A stretch of 64,000 bases of DNA from contig NW_023501084.1 of assembly GCF_014066305.1 (NCBI RefSeq), forward strand, positions 186,001 through 250,000, read 5' to 3'. Both the position numbers and the translations under genes were made by a program. Under the pieces are notes generated by a model. It did no database searches. It was not told the DNA's origin and was given only the letters and a program-made list of their open reading frames with translations. Positions 12,419 through 42,020 of the stretch are shown in pieces. This DNA comes from Letharia columbiana. Lineage: Eukaryota > Ascomycota > Lecanoromycetes > Lecanorales > Parmeliaceae. The first letter of the stretch is position 1; the number at the start of each line of letters is the position of its first letter.

Positions 12419-15400
12419 TCACAGACCGATGCCCGCAACGACGGTATTGACCACCGGGACCAGCGCCACCGCCCCACCGCTCGTGCTCACCGCCACCGCG
12501 TTCGTCACCACGACCGTGGTGAACCCGGTCGGGGTCACCGCGACCGGCGTCGCGGAGACTGCGGCCACCGTGACCGTGACGAAGGTGCTCGGCGCCGTCG
12601 CCGTCACGCTGGGCAGGAGCTGGACCGTGCCGCCGAGCGTGGCTTGGATGAGTGAGTTCTGGATGGAGATTTCGAGACTGACGCAGGCTTCGTCGGGGCA
12701 GTTGTACGGTAGCAGGGTCGAGATCGGCGCGGTGGTTGCTGCCCCTAAGATGGGTAGGGCCGGGAGGAGTGTGATTGTGGGGAGGGTGTCGGTGGGCAGG
12801 ATTGTGGGGACTGCGACTGTGGGGACGATGTCGGTGGTGAGGATGTCTGTAGAGATAACATCGGTAGGGAACATCGGTAGGGAGGACGTAGGATCTACTG
12901 TAGGGATGATGTCGGTGGAGAGGATGTCTGTAGAGATAACATCGGTGGGGACGACATCGGTAGGGACGACCGTAGGCACTATAACTGTAGGGATGATGTC
13001 GGTGGGGAGGATGTCTGTAGGGACAACATCGGTAGGGACGACCGTAGGCACTATAACTGTAGGGATGATGTCGGTGGTGAGGATGTCTGTAGGGATAACA
13101 TCGGTAGGGAGGACAGTAGGAACTGCTACTGTAGGGATGATGTCGGTGGTGAGGATGTCTGTAGGATAATATCCGTAGGGACAACATCGGTAGGGAGGAC
13201 AGTAGACACTGTAACTGTAGGGATGATGTCGGTGGGGAGGATGTCTGTAGGGACAACATCGGTAGGGAGGACAGTAGGAACTGCTACTGTAGGGATGATG
13301 TCGGTGGAGAGGATGTCTGTAGGGATAACATCGGTAGGGAGGACATCGGTAGGGACAACATCGGTAGGGAGGACAGTAGGAACTGCTACTGTAGGGATGA
13401 TGTCGGTAGGGAGGACATCGGTAGGGAGGACATCGGTAGGGACAACATCGGTAGGGACAACATCGGTAGGAAGGACCATAGACACTGTAACTGTAGGGAT
13501 GATGTCGGTGGGGAGGATGTCTGTAGGTAGCTCGGTAGGGAGGATATCGGTAGGGAGGACATCGGTGGGGAGGCCATCGGTAGGGAGAACATCGGTAGGG
13601 AGGATTCTGTTGGGATAATATCGGTAGGGAGGACAGTAGGAACTGCTACTGTAGGGATGATGTCGGTAGGGAGGATATCCGTAGGGACAACATCGGTAGG
13701 GACGACATCGGTAGGGACGACCGTGGGCACTGCAACTGTAGGGATGATGTCGGTGGGGAGGATGTCTGTAGGTACCGGTAGGGACAACATCGGTAGGGAG
13801 GACATCGGTAGGGACAACATCGGTAGGGAGGACAGTAGGAACTGCTACTGTAGGGATGATGTCGGTAGGGAGGACATCGGTAGGGAGGACATCGGTAGGG
13901 ACAACATCGGTAGGGACAACATCGGTAGGAAGGACCATAGACACTGTAACTGTAGGGATGATGTCGGTAGGGAGGATATCGGTCGGGACAATATCGGTAG
14001 GGACAACATCGGTAGGGACAACATCGGTAGGGAGGACAGTAGGAACTGCTACTGTAGGGACAATATCGGTAGGGAGGACATCGGTAGGGAGGACATCGGT
14101 AGGGAGGACATCGGTAGGGAGGACATCGGTAGGGAGGACATCGGTAGGGAGGACATCGGTAGGGAGGACATCGGTAGGGAGGACAGTAGGAACTGCTACT
14201 GTAGGGATGATGTCGGTAGGGAGGATGTCTGTAGGGACAACATCGGTAGGGACGACCGTGGGCACTGCAACTGTAGGGATGATGTCGGTGGGGAGGATGT
14301 CTGTAGGTAGCGCGGTAGGGAGGATATCCGTAGGGACAATATCGGTCGGGACAATGTCGGTCGGGACAATATCCGTAGGGACAACATCGGTAGGGAGGAC
14401 CGTAGGCACTGCAACTGTAGGGATAATGTCGGTAGGGGGGGATGTCTGTAGGTAGCGCGGTAGGGAGGACATCGGTAGGTAGGATATCTGTAGGTAGCAC
14501 CGTAGGAAGAGCAGCTGTAGGGAGAATATCGGTGGGTAGGATATCAGTGGGAAGGATGTCGGTAGGGACAACATCGGTGGGACAACGTCGGTGGGGAGGA
14601 TATCGGTAGGGAGCGCCGTGGGTATTGCGACTGTAGGGAGAATATCGGTAGGTAGGATATCTGTAGGTAGCACCGTAGGAAGAGCAGCTGTAGGGAGAAT
14701 ATCGGTGGGTAGGATATCGGTGGGAAGAGCAGCTGTAGGGAGAATATCCGTGGGAAGGATATCGGTGGGGAGGATATCTGTCGGTAGCACCGTAGGGAGA
14801 GCAGCTGTAGGGAGAATATCGGTGGGTAGGATATCGGTGGGAAGAGCAGCTGTAGGGAGAATATCCGTGGGAAGGATATCGGTGGGGAGGATATCTGTCG
14901 GTAGCACCGTAGGGAAGAGCAGCTGTAGGGAGAATATCCGTGGGAAGGATATCGGTGGGGAGGATATCTGTCGGTAGCACCGTGGGGAGAGCAGCTGTAG
15001 GTAGATTATCGGTAGGCAGGATATCTGTAGGAAGGATATCGGTAGGGAGAATATCGGTAGGTAATATATTGTAGGGAGCGCTGTAGGTATTGCCACTGTA
15101 GGTAGAATATCGGTAGGCAGGATACCTGTAGGGAGGACATTGGTAGGCAGGATATCTGTAGGAACGATATCGGTAGGCAGGATATTTGTAGGGACGATAT
15201 CGGTAGGGAGAATATTGGTAGGTAAGATATCTGTAGGGAGGATATCGGTAGGTAGTACTGTAGGAATTGCAAGCGTAGGGAGGATATCGGTAGGTAGGAT
15301 ATTTGTAGGGAGGATATTCGTAGGTAGGATATCTGTAGGCAGGATATCGGTGGGGAGGATATCGGTGGGGAGAATATTGGTAGGGAGGATATCGGTAGGT

Positions 15401-18357
15401 AGGATATCGGTAGGGAGAATATTGGTAGGTAGGATGCCTGTAGGGAGGATATCGGTGGGGAGAATACCGGTAGGGAGAATATCGGTAGGTAGGATGCCTG
15501 TAGGGAGGATATCGGTAGGGAGAATATTGGTAGGTAGGATGCCTGTAGGGAGGATATCGGTGGGGAGAATACCGGTAGGGAGAATATCGGTAGGTAGGAT
15601 GCCTGTAGGGAGGATATCGGTAGGTAGAATGTCTGTAGGCAGGATGCCTGTAGGGAGGATATCGGTGGGGAGAATATCGGTAGGTAGGATGCCTGTAGGG
15701 AGGATATCGGTAGGTAGAATGTCTGTAGGCAGGATGCCTGTAGGGAGGATATCGGTGGGGAGAATATCGGTAGGGAGGATATTGGTAGGGAGGATATCGG
15801 TAGGTAGGATGTCTGTAGGCAGGATGCCCGTAGGGAGGATATTGGTGGGGAGAATATCGGTGGGGAGAATATCGGTAGGTAGGATACCTGTAGGGAGGAT
15901 ATCGGTAGGTAGAATGTCTGTAGGTAGGATGCCTGTAGGGAGAATATCGGTAGGGAGGATGCCTGTAGGGAGGATATCGGTGGGGAGAATATCGGTAGGG
16001 AGGATATTGGTAGGGAGGATATCGGTAGGTAGGATGTCTGTAGGCAGGATGCCTGTAGGGAGGATATTGGTGGGGAGAATATCGGTGGGGAGAATATCGG
16101 TAGGTAGGATACCTGTAGGGAGGATATCGGTAGGTAGAAGATTTGTAGGTAGAAGATTTGTAGGTAGAAGATTTGTAGGTAGGATGCCTGTAGGGAGGAT
16201 ATTGGTAGGGAGAATATCGGTAGGTAGGATGCCTGTAGGGAGGATATCGGTGGGGAGAATATCGGTAGGGAGGATATTGGTAGGGAGGATATCGGTAGGT
16301 AGGATGTCTGTAGGTAGAAGATTCGTAGGTAGAAGATTTGTAGGTAGGATGCCTGTAGGGAGGATATCGGTAGGTAGGATGTCTGTAGGTAGAAGATTTG
16401 TAGGTAGGATACCTGTAGGGAGGATATTGGTAGGTAGGATGTCGTAGTGGAGAAGATTTGTAGGTAGAAGATTTGTAGGTAGGATGCTCTGGTAGGGAGA
16501 AGATTTGTAGGTAGAAGATTCGTAGGTAGGAGATTTGTAGGTAGAAGATTTGTAGGTAGGATGCCTGTAGGGAGAATATTGGTAGGGAGAATATCGGTAG
16601 GTAGGATGTCTGTAGGTAGAAGATTTGTAGGTAGAAGATTTGTAGGTAGAAGATTTGTAGGTAGGATGCCTGTAGGGAGAATATTGGTAGGTAGGATGAT
16701 CTGTAGGTAGAAGATTTGTAGGTAGAAGATTTGTAGGTAGGATGCCTGTAGGGAGGATATTGGTAGGGAGAATATCGGTAGGTAGGATGTCTGTAGGTAG
16801 AAGATTTGTAGGTAGAAGATTTGTAGGTAGGATGCCTGTAGGGAGGATATTGGTAGGGAGAATATCGGTAGGTAGGATGCTTGTAGGGAGGATATTGGTA
16901 GGGAGAATATCGGTAGGTAGGATGTCTGTAGGCAGGATGCCTGTAGGGAGGATATTGGTAGGGAGAATATCGGTAGGTAGGATGTCTGTAGGCAGGATGC
17001 CTGTAGGGAGGATATTGGTAGGGAGAGCATCGGTAGGTAGATGCTGTAGGTAGGATGCCTGTAGAGAGGATATTGGTAGGGAGAATATTGGTAGGTAGGA
17101 TGTCTGTAGTGGGCGCAGGACTGGTAGACGTAGAAATTGTGTGCCTAGAACTCGAGATCGCAGGACTCGTGGTCACCAATCTCGTAGTCACTGAACTCGT
17201 AGACGTGGCGCTCTTTGTTGTGGGCAACGCGTTCAGTCCCAAAGTCACGCTGGCTTGTACACCTAAGGACAATGACACACAGATCTCGTCTTGGAGAAAC
17301 CGAAGTCAGCCTTTGCCATTGATGAAGTAGGAGATATAAGCTTACTACCGCAACCAAATGGCAAAGAACTAGTAGAGGCGGTGCCGGCCCCGGCCCGTCC
17401 TGCATTGGACTCAGACACACAAGCAAGATCAGTGCATCCGTAGGGTAGGGAACTGGTGCTCGATGCGGTCACCGACTGGGAGCTGGCAGGTGTGGAGCTT
17501 GTCGTGTTGGCGTAGTGGGAGAAAGATTGACGTGAAGACAAACTGATGGCCCCAGTAACAGAAGCTAACGAAGCTACCACGTTGGACAATCTTTGCGTTG
17601 TGGCCGTAGAAGTGCTAGAGGTGGAGGTGGAGGAGGAATACGCTGCTAAGGCTTTCTGAGCGCGTTTCAACATTTTCAGACCGCCGCAAAATTCGTCCTG
17701 ATCGTCTTTGCAGGGTACATTGCACACGCTGTCGGCTCCGCGCGCCGGAGCTGCTACAATGGAATCTCCGCATGTGCCTTGCACTGTTGTCAGTGTTTAC
17801 ATCCTTCTCAAGGATTGGTAGTCACCCACAGTCAACGCCAGATTCCAATGAGAAGTAGGTCGAGCCCAGACAGAGCAGTCCACACTGGTCTACATCTCCA
17901 ACGGTATAGCTGGCAGCGACGGGCTGTATGTACTGGCCTTCAAAACATCCCACGTACACGTACGTTGCCCCTGCTATGGCGATTCGACTGGGGATAGATA
18001 CTAGACTATTGGTGGAGCTAGCAGTAGCTGTAAGGCTGTTCGTCGAACTTGGAGATGTTAGTATTGGGACAGAGGATGCTATACCTGAGCTTAAATCTGT
18101 TAAGGTAGGTGAGACAGAACTGCCGAGCCCGGCATTCGAGCCAATCGCAGTTGTGATACTACCTGAAGGTAAGGAGGTGGTAACAGGTACAACGACCTCG
18201 ACCAAACTCGATGTAAGGAAGCAGACTTAGCACCTTTCTTAGCATGACCTCGATCCTTCGCTCCCGAGATCGACTTACCACTTTCTTCCTGAGCACTGCT
18301 GGTTGGAACATGTGTCAGTGCTACTAGAACCAATGGCAGAAACCAAAGACGGGCCAT
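12419..18357 (-). CDS. Secreted WSC-domain protein with giant repeat stalk
   Basis: Probable cell-surface or wall glycoprotein. Exons 18357-18279, 18225-17830, 17777-17349 and 17289-12419; introns 53, 52 and 59 nt. Order: signal peptide (MARLWFLPLVLVALTHVPTS), Ser/Thr-rich spacer, WSC domain (YVYVGCFEGQY ... VDCTCGD ... DEFCGG; the central CxC is made by joining exons 2 and 3), Ser/Thr-rich linker with a GCTDLACVS motif, a cysteine module (CDEICVSL...), about 4.3 kb of 15-bp repeats, and a second such module (CPDEACVSLEISIQ) before a hydrophobic C-terminal tail after STSGG, which could be a GPI signal. The repeat enters and leaves in the LPTDI phase and exon 4 keeps the frame overall (summed exons divisible by three), but inside the array indels shift the phase, and the entry frame meets a stop at 13646. 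The exact protein is therefore uncertain; the gene itself is clear. Confidence 0.75.
12770..17105 (-). repeat. 15-bp minisatellite, coding, about 4.3 kb
   Basis: Roughly 290 units of a 15-bp repeat, plus-strand consensus GGTAGGGAGGATATC with variants (GGTAGGGACAACATC and others). The minus strand reads DILPT in the host gene's phase, YPPYR in a second and ISSLP in the third, none with a stop. Two blocks are visible: 12.8-14.5 kb has higher-order units built around the peptide IIPTVAVPTVLPTDVV, while 14.5-17.1 kb is simpler, with TNILPTG/TNLLPT variants nearest the N-terminal side. Confidence 0.92.
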
Positions 18358-41777: not shown

Positions 41778-41788
41778 AAAAAAAAAAA
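41778..41788 (-). terminator. Pol III terminator (T11)
   Basis: Eleven A on the plus strand, read as T11 on the tRNA strand, beginning two bases after the discriminator base. RNA polymerase III stops at such T runs, which supports this locus as a transcribed tRNA gene. Confidence 0.85.
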
Positions 41789-41816
41789 TTGGTCACTACG
41801 AGGGTCGAACTCGCGA

Positions 41817-41870
41817 CTGGTAGACGTTAGACATCGGACGATCAGAGAATCGGAACTCAAATTTACATAC
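41817..41870 (-). other. tRNA intron 3 (variable loop), spliceosomal-looking
   Basis: 54 nt, begins GTATGT, has GTCTAACG as branch site and ends CTACCAG: a near-perfect fungal spliceosomal intron. Precise removal joins CCAAGG to TCGCGAG and restores the normal five-base variable loop. Confidence 0.8.
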
Positions 41871-41879
41871 CCTTGGCGT

Positions 41880-41889
41880 TGACAATTGA
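41880..41889 (-). other. tRNA intron 2, canonical position 37/38
   Basis: Ten nucleotides (TCAATTGTCA; ends ambiguous by one base) one base 3' of the anticodon, the normal place for nuclear tRNA introns removed by the tRNA splicing endonuclease. Confidence 0.8.
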
Positions 41890-41909
41890 TATTAGCACCA
41901 CGCTCTAAC

Positions 41910-41964
41910 CTATCAAGACAAATCAGTAAATTGATCGGTACCAGATTATATTGGTTATAAATAC
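41910..41964 (-). other. tRNA intron 1 (D loop), spliceosomal-looking
   Basis: 55 nt, begins GTATTTATAACC and ends TTGATAG, with a branch-like TTTACTGAT about 15 nt before the end. Cutting exactly at GT and AG joins ...CAGTTG to GTTAGAGC, the standard D-arm sequence. Length equals the mRNA introns of neighbouring genes. Confidence 0.75.
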
Positions 41965-42010
41965 CAACTGAGCTAAGCGACCTGGAATAATTATTTGTGC
42001 TTAATGCAAA

Positions 42011-42020
42011 AGATATATCT
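42011..42020 (-). promoter_or_regulatory. TATA-like element upstream of the tRNA
   Basis: AGATATATCT lies 29-38 bp upstream of the mature tRNA 5' end, where several fungi carry a TATA element that positions TFIIIB. Assignment rests on position and sequence only. Confidence 0.45.

Follow-up and report, generated by a model that had tools for sequence, protein, structure and literature searches.

The window analysed here, a stretch of 64,000 nucleotides of the Letharia columbiana genome (contig NW_023501084.1, positions 186,001 to 250,000), contains what is very probably a working nuclear tRNA-Ile(AAU) gene, probably transcribed by RNA polymerase III (Pol III), whose precursor would carry two U2-type spliceosomal introns together with one tRNA intron at position 37/38. 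Across the 52.2-Mb genome, at least 16 distinct nuclear tRNA genes were found to hold 23 ectopic introns, one to four per gene. The best reading of this set is that the genes are functional, probably Pol III-transcribed, and that maturation of their precursors would require the spliceosome, joined by the tRNA splicing endonuclease in those genes that have a 37/38 intron. In the textbook view, nuclear tRNAs are spliced by proteins alone, in a process distinct from the splicing of mRNA; the tRNA genes described here look like multi-intron mRNA genes. An earlier note on this DNA had proposed, on the basis of the isoleucine gene, that processing of a Pol III transcript may call on both the spliceosome and the tRNA endonuclease. 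This proposal gains support from 15 further genes, from the spliceosomal statistics and from introns in U6, while spliceosomal removal of the introns and transcription by Pol III are inferred.

The tRNA-Ile(AAU) gene

The gene lies on the minus strand of its contig (C49; window positions 41982-41790), where four exon pieces give a complete 74-nt tRNA-Ile(AAU) after removal of three inserts. In the spliced RNA the acceptor, D, anticodon and T stems are all paired, with three G-U pairs, and the anticodon AAU stands within the loop CTAATAA. The gene and its surroundings comprise the following features:

41965-41982, minus strand: exon 1, positions 1-18 (acceptor 5' strand and 5' part of the D arm)
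41910-41964, minus strand: ectopic intron 1, 55 nt, GTATTT..TTGATAG, between G18 and G19
41922-41930, minus strand: putative branch site TTTACTGAT of intron 1, its A 14 nt from the 3' end
41890-41909, minus strand: exon 2, positions 19-37 (rest of the D arm, anticodon stem 5' strand, anticodon AAT)
41880-41889, minus strand: 37/38 intron at the canonical position, 10 nt, not GT-AG
41871-41879, minus strand: exon 3, starting at position 38 and ending with base 3 of the variable loop
41817-41870, minus strand: ectopic intron 2, 54 nt, GTATGT..CTACCAG, in the variable loop after its third base, with two equivalent registers
41825-41832, minus strand: putative branch site GTCTAACG of intron 2, its A 11 nt from the 3' end
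41790-41816, minus strand: exon 4 (end of the variable loop, T arm with the B box GTTCGACCC, acceptor 3' strand, discriminator A)
41778-41788, minus strand: run of 11 T resembling a Pol III terminator, one base downstream of the tRNA
42014-42017, minus strand: TATA, at -35 relative to the 5' end of the tRNA

This anatomy agrees with the earlier note, which had described the 74-nt tRNA in four exons with three insertions and had given the two longer ones ends of GTATTT to TAG and GTATGT to CAG, sizes of 55 and 54 nt, and branch motifs; all pieces were found at the positions it gave. The ends of intron 1 can be placed in four equivalent registers, one of which is GT-AG. Its 5' splice site (GTATTT) is weak, and the nine letters of TTTACTGAT recur identically in one MSH3 mRNA intron of the same genome. 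The 10-nt insert lies one base 3' of the anticodon, as canonical tRNA introns do.

The locus was scored with a purpose-written, intron-tolerant tRNA search (the finder), which asks for GT-AG inserts and rewards mRNA-like motifs. With a score of 28.95 it was the sole match in the window, and the exact two GT-AG introns of the earlier note came first among three solutions. As a measure of chance, first-order Markov simulation produced 400 copies of the window, 25.6 Mb in all; searched on both strands, they gave one match of at least 23 and none of at least 25. In the raw window ARAGORN reported no tRNA, and no Rfam match was obtained at gathering cut-offs; in the spliced sequence ARAGORN detects a tRNA, with its own placement of the 10-nt intron giving the anticodon 'atc' and not AAU. 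When insert ends were left free and only stem pairing was considered, GT-AG came 6th among 143 end classes for one insert and 6th among 208 for the other, so the pairing of the stems is not enough by itself to define where the inserts end.

The earlier note had also raised the matter of other tRNA-Ile(AAU) genes, and no intact copy was met by pattern, DNA and RF00005 searches of the genome. The 32-nt spliced pattern (positions 8-37, at most three mismatches) had no match, the DNA search returned only the gene in the window, and the anticodon AAT was absent from the 17 (of 56) RF00005 matches read.

Interrupted tRNA genes across the genome

The 23 ectopic introns, 49-83 nt long, consist of 22 with GT-AG and one with GC-AG ends. 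In the GT-AG register they occupy the sites 10/11, D loop, 18/19, 22/23, 24/25, 27/28, 28/29, 43/44, variable loop or arm, 51/52 and 52/53. The nuclear genes are distributed as follows:

One ectopic intron each: Thr-AGT, Ser-AGA, Thr-CGT, Arg-CCG, Phe-GAA, Arg-CCT, Ser-GCT, Met-CAT, Ser-CGA, Lys-TTT, Trp-CCA, Arg-TCT
Several ectopic introns: Ile-AAT (2), Gln-CTG (2), Asn-GTT (3), Lys-CTT (4)
Confident nuclear tRNA genes without ectopic intron (14, of which 10 have a 37/38 intron): loci L008, L009, L021, L031, L033, L034, L036, L037, L038, L040, L080, L081, L108, L114

The set was assembled from several searches. An RF00005 search of the genome gave 56 matches, from 63 of 1723 candidates scored; the 17 read are those outside contigs C94 and C110, on which the other 39 are packed and which are taken to be mitochondrial, and "nuclear" here denotes genes off these two contigs that by eye are not mitochondrial-like. 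The GT-AG inserts of Thr-AGT and Ser-AGA were already among these 17 matches, and Thr-CGT came from the loci of a first pattern search. Further searches asked for a B box followed by a T-run (two complete lists, of 34 and 81 rows, and otherwise the matches listed). Candidate regions picked by eye from the rows of these pattern searches numbered 48 (8 + 20 + 20), of which 18 yielded tRNAs and 30 yielded none (4 of 8, 11 of 20 and 15 of 20). The gene set is non-exhaustive and biased to genes with an intact B-box core and a nearby T-run. Left out of the counts were an uncertain Leu gene (L035), four loci that appear mitochondrial-like (L020, L027, L039, L042), a repeat-like one (L127, 23.55) and the duplicates L087, which holds the same gene as L021, and L105, whose gene is identical to that of L104. 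Manual assignment was used in three cases: Arg-TCT; the GC-AG intron of Gln-CTG, for which the finder offered a GT-AG alternative with a 12-nt D loop; and Trp-CCA, for which it first gave a 60-nt insert at 37/38 and which, when read with a GT-AG intron, has an A-C mismatch at 31-39.

After splicing, all 16 genes give a complete cloverleaf with an isotype-consistent anticodon by stem and loop scoring (Trp-CCA with that one anticodon-stem mismatch), and the spliced products retain the stems and the conserved loop bases. Very short exons occur: Lys-CTT has one of 7 nt, and the first exon measures 10 nt in both Lys-CTT and Gln-CTG. Exons of 7-10 nt are hard for a spliceosome and are a real difficulty for the spliceosomal reading. 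ARAGORN finds a tRNA in 16 of 16 spliced and 3 of 16 unspliced genes, and also in 671 of 1600 random removals; three spliced genes (Ile, Phe, Asn) it names differently, because it puts the 37/38 intron elsewhere. With random removals accepted so often and three introns misplaced, this is a weak test. The Rfam tRNA model scores only 4 of the 16 interrupted genes above its cut-off. Because such genes escape standard models, a genome in which tRNAs seem implausibly few deserves re-reading.

Unoccupied intron sites lend further support. Ser-TGA, which has no ectopic intron, is identical at 78 of 81 positions to spliced Ser-CGA, which has a T-stem intron, and Gln-TTG and spliced Gln-CTG, each of 72 nt, are identical at 56 positions. 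The Ser-CGA gene is present in identical form, T-stem intron included, at L104 (C53) and L105 (C81), so the intron was copied along with the gene. Among the genes without ectopic intron, L031 (321-392; C8:201009-201080) has the loop TTCGCAT, that is, the anticodon CGC (Ala), on a tRNA body that we take to be Pro-like.

Splice signals and removal of the ectopic introns

Signals were tabulated for the first 22 ectopic introns, before Arg-TCT was added. Among these, 21 start with GT and one with GC (GCAAGT), all 22 end in AG, G stands at +5 in 18, and the median length is 53 nt. The motif CTRAY, with its A 10-19 nt from the 3' end, occurs in 19 of the 22, as compared with a mean of 1.5 and a maximum of 8 in 2000 trials of dinucleotide shuffling (CTRAY at 8-20 nt), and the 5' splice site has the form G[T/C]RNG in 17 against 1.7 expected. 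The 23rd intron (Arg-TCT; GTTAGT..CAG, 55 nt) was judged by eye to be without CTRAY, which is thus absent from 4 of 23. The features of U2-type introns are therefore present, namely splice-site ends with a GTRNGT-like 5' splice site and CTRAY near the 3' splice site, the GT-AG ends themselves having been required by the search. The GC-AG intron, in the Gln-CTG gene of L113 (284-472), combines GCAAGT with ACTAAC; the former is the classic minor 5' splice-site form of mRNA introns.

For reference, 17 mRNA introns of the same genome were used, 16 from three tubulin-family genes by spliced alignment and one from MSH3 by eye, a second MSH3 candidate being left unused. They measure 48-106 nt (median 58) and contain CTRAY in 14 of 17 at 8-25 nt; the ectopic tRNA introns resemble them. 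This reference replaced introns called within the window, where a motif scan gave 65 matches against 43.1 in shuffles with no clear length peak, and where both a codon-usage Viterbi approach (21 calls, four with CTRAY) and the bridging of open reading frames were disturbed by a 15-bp tandem repeat. About 286 copies of this repeat fill window positions 12900-17109, open in several frames on both strands.

The search itself favours GT-AG, and its bias was checked in several ways. When all 256 end pairs were compared without the motif bonus, allowing at most two inserts of 46-62 nt, GT-AG recovered the most tRNA loci (14, two of which hold the same gene; next best 9; mean 2.0). When the interior of each intron was shuffled between a fixed first and last base, GT-AG could be placed as well as in the real sequence in 5-82% of trials, depending on the intron (combined P 6e-4, 21 introns), so that tRNA structure alone fixes the intron ends only weakly. 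Given this, and the weakness of the ARAGORN test, the argument rests on structure, branch and donor motifs, and recurrence. Other kinds of ectopic insert would be missed by a finder limited to GT-AG and rewarding mRNA-like motifs. An internal control is provided by the 37/38 introns of the tabulated tRNA genes with and without ectopic introns (n = 21; 8-39 nt, median 16), none of which has GT..AG ends or CTRAY (0 of 21 each), a further one of 7 nt being present in Arg-TCT; because these introns are short, the missing CTRAY says little, and only the absence of GT..AG weighs much. No mobile introner family was seen among the ectopic introns (best pair score 16, equal to the shuffled maximum of 16), nor an excess of target-site repeats (on average 3.09 registers, with 2.98 after shuffling). 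Self-splicing introns were considered and rejected. The catalytic core of group I and II introns usually exceeds 200 nt; the inserts measure only 49-83 nt, Rfam applied at gathering cut-offs matched nothing in the window, and in 17 loci no intron family reached E<=1.

Two other accounts of the inserts need to be weighed against spliceosomal removal. The tRNA splicing endonuclease might cut them at bulge-helix-bulge-like (BHB) motifs, their GT-AG ends being incidental; the enzyme is presumably present, given the 37/38 introns in the same genes, and ectopic tRNA introns occur at similar sites in Cyanidioschyzon merolae, nucleomorphs and archaea, according to portions of PMC4090602 and PMC3978253. 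However, BHB-like geometry was found at 2 of 23 inserts against 1.1 in shuffles (by a simple 4-bp helix test, unvalidated on known BHB introns), neither the GT/GC-AG ends nor the constant distance of CTRAY nor the narrow, mRNA-like range of lengths would be expected, and GT..AG ends are missing from all 21 introns at 37/38, which together make this account very improbable. Alternatively, the interrupted genes could be pseudogenes or decayed copies whose intact counterparts were missed or are absent from the assembly. The searches were indeed non-exhaustive (63 of 1723 RF00005 candidates scored), and a review, in the part available, regards eukaryotic tRNA genes with short insertions in the D or T arm as being for the most part pseudogenes (PMC4090602). 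Decay, however, would not produce splice sites and branch sites, nor does it fit the stems and conserved loop bases kept in the spliced products. In addition, no intron-free Ile(AAU) gene was met, and no intron-free Asn-GTT, Phe-GAA, Lys-CTT or Lys-TTT gene was found among the places read, including the 17 of 56 RF00005 matches. Ile(AAU), Asn, Phe and Lys tRNAs are indispensable for any proteome. Decay of the interrupted genes is highly unlikely.

Under spliceosomal removal, Pol III would transcribe the interrupted genes and the spliceosome would excise the GT-AG introns, a nuclear step proceeding through a branch point and lariat. The tRNA would fold only after this step, which is placed first because the cloverleaf cannot form earlier; in the isoleucine precursor, the tRNA splicing endonuclease and ligase would then excise the 10-nt intron.

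Transcription, related introns and consequences

All 16 interrupted genes have a T-run downstream, partly by selection, since most were found with T-run patterns, and runs of five or more T are absent from all 16 gene bodies. The depletion of T5 inside the ectopic introns is not significant (0 against 2.1 expected, P 0.11). Between -55 and -18, TATA occurs upstream of 12 of the 16 intron-bearing genes and of 11 of the 14 nuclear tRNA genes without ectopic intron, against a background of 5% in random window stretches and 25% in shuffled upstream stretches. The B-box core is unbroken in the interrupted genes, as the search required, and the introns at 10/11 divide the A box (Lys-CTT, Gln-CTG). 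Where introns lie at this site (L099 and L113), the 5' splice site that follows TAG (TAGGTAAG) is similar to the A-box half displaced by the intron. Introns at 10/11 may thus supply promoter sequence, with the 5' splice site GTAAG after TAG imitating the A box.

Transcription of the interrupted genes by Pol II would account for the spliceosomal step, splicing by the spliceosome being normally Pol II-coupled, and would agree with the splitting of the A box in Lys-CTT and Gln-CTG. It is nonetheless very unlikely, as the downstream T-runs are found at 16 of 16 genes with no such run of five or more inside, the B-box core is uninterrupted (although the search demanded it), and a TATA about 35 nt upstream also suits Pol III genes. 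Transcription by Pol III is preferred.

The sole good match to U6 snRNA in the genome (L045, 1430-1650; C17, about 919.2 kb) is itself interrupted by a 53-nt intron with the branch motif CTGAT, whose removal restores ACAG|AGA, and probably by a second one of 57 nt near the 3' end, with the branch motif TACTAAT. Introns of U6 in Schizosaccharomyces pombe and other fungi, as in this genome, are likewise short GT-AG introns with a branch site in a Pol III transcript; here, in contrast, the host is a tRNA, many genes are concerned, with up to four introns per gene, and some are combined with an endonuclease-type intron. In 2017, frequent interruption by an intron was said to be known, among small structured RNAs, for U3 and U6 only (PMC5832005, in the part available). 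Spliceosomal introns, of 57 nt in Cladonia grayi, are also present in the nuclear rDNA of lichen-forming and other ascomycetes and are removed by the fungus, and also by yeast once placed in yeast rDNA, according to sections of PMC8527467. The word 'tRNA' has no occurrence in the main text of that paper. These rDNA introns are similarly ectopic and spliceosomal in a non-coding RNA not made by Pol II, but they differ in that their host is a Pol I rRNA and not a tRNA.

Several introns per tRNA gene, also outside the anticodon loop, are reported from C. merolae, nucleomorphs and Crenarchaeota in passages of PMC4090602 and PMC3978253, and the tRNA-Ile(UAU) of C. merolae has three, in the D, anticodon and T arms (PMC9602550, in part). 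In the excerpts available, the ectopic introns of these groups are of BHB type and endonuclease-cut, or of a mechanism not known (3-24 nt in Guillardia theta), whereas those described here measure 49-83 nt and have GT/GC-AG ends and a branch site, with BHB geometry at shuffle level. Canonical nuclear introns at 37/38 also occur here, in 21 tabulated genes including that for Ile, and the ectopic ones differ from them in their GT/GC-AG ends and CTRAY. Non-canonical eukaryotic tRNA introns are supposed to be rare in the part available of PMC4090602, and the prior work consulted also included PMC8450103, PMC10161547, PMC4035089 and PMC11782384. By title and start of abstract, no nuclear tRNA with spliceosomal introns was found among the matches listed in the open-licence literature. 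Spliceosomal introns in Pol III and Pol I RNAs are already known, and the nuclear tRNA as a host is new within the literature searched.

It seems likely that the core tRNA set of this fungus depends on the spliceosome, with at least 16 genes, including the only ones found for Ile(AAU), Asn, Phe and both Lys isoacceptors, giving hybrid or purely spliceosomal pre-tRNAs, and with introns that may supply promoter sequence. U6 is a catalytic part of the spliceosome and would itself need splicing, so that translation and splicing would each depend on the other through Pol III transcripts. If this is true, Pol III transcripts that are short, presumably lack a cap and have exons down to 7 nt would be routine substrates of the spliceosome, and the supply of tRNA would depend on its activity. 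Such genes would form a natural test system for the need of Pol II coupling, a cap or exon size in splicing, and for the entry of spliceosomal introns into non-coding genes.

Other non-coding RNA loci of this genome were also noted. The 5S genes gave five matches, full-length and with no intron. The only 5.8S match (L129, C7:26657) belongs to AT-rich, RIP-like decayed rDNA, and an intact rDNA unit may exist elsewhere in the genome. A dispersed repeat on many contigs (for example at C2:231246 and C3:376890) ends in GTTCGATTCCTAATGGCGCTGGTACAATGGTGTTGCGGTGCTTTTT, a B-box-like sequence with a T-run, and is possibly a SINE.
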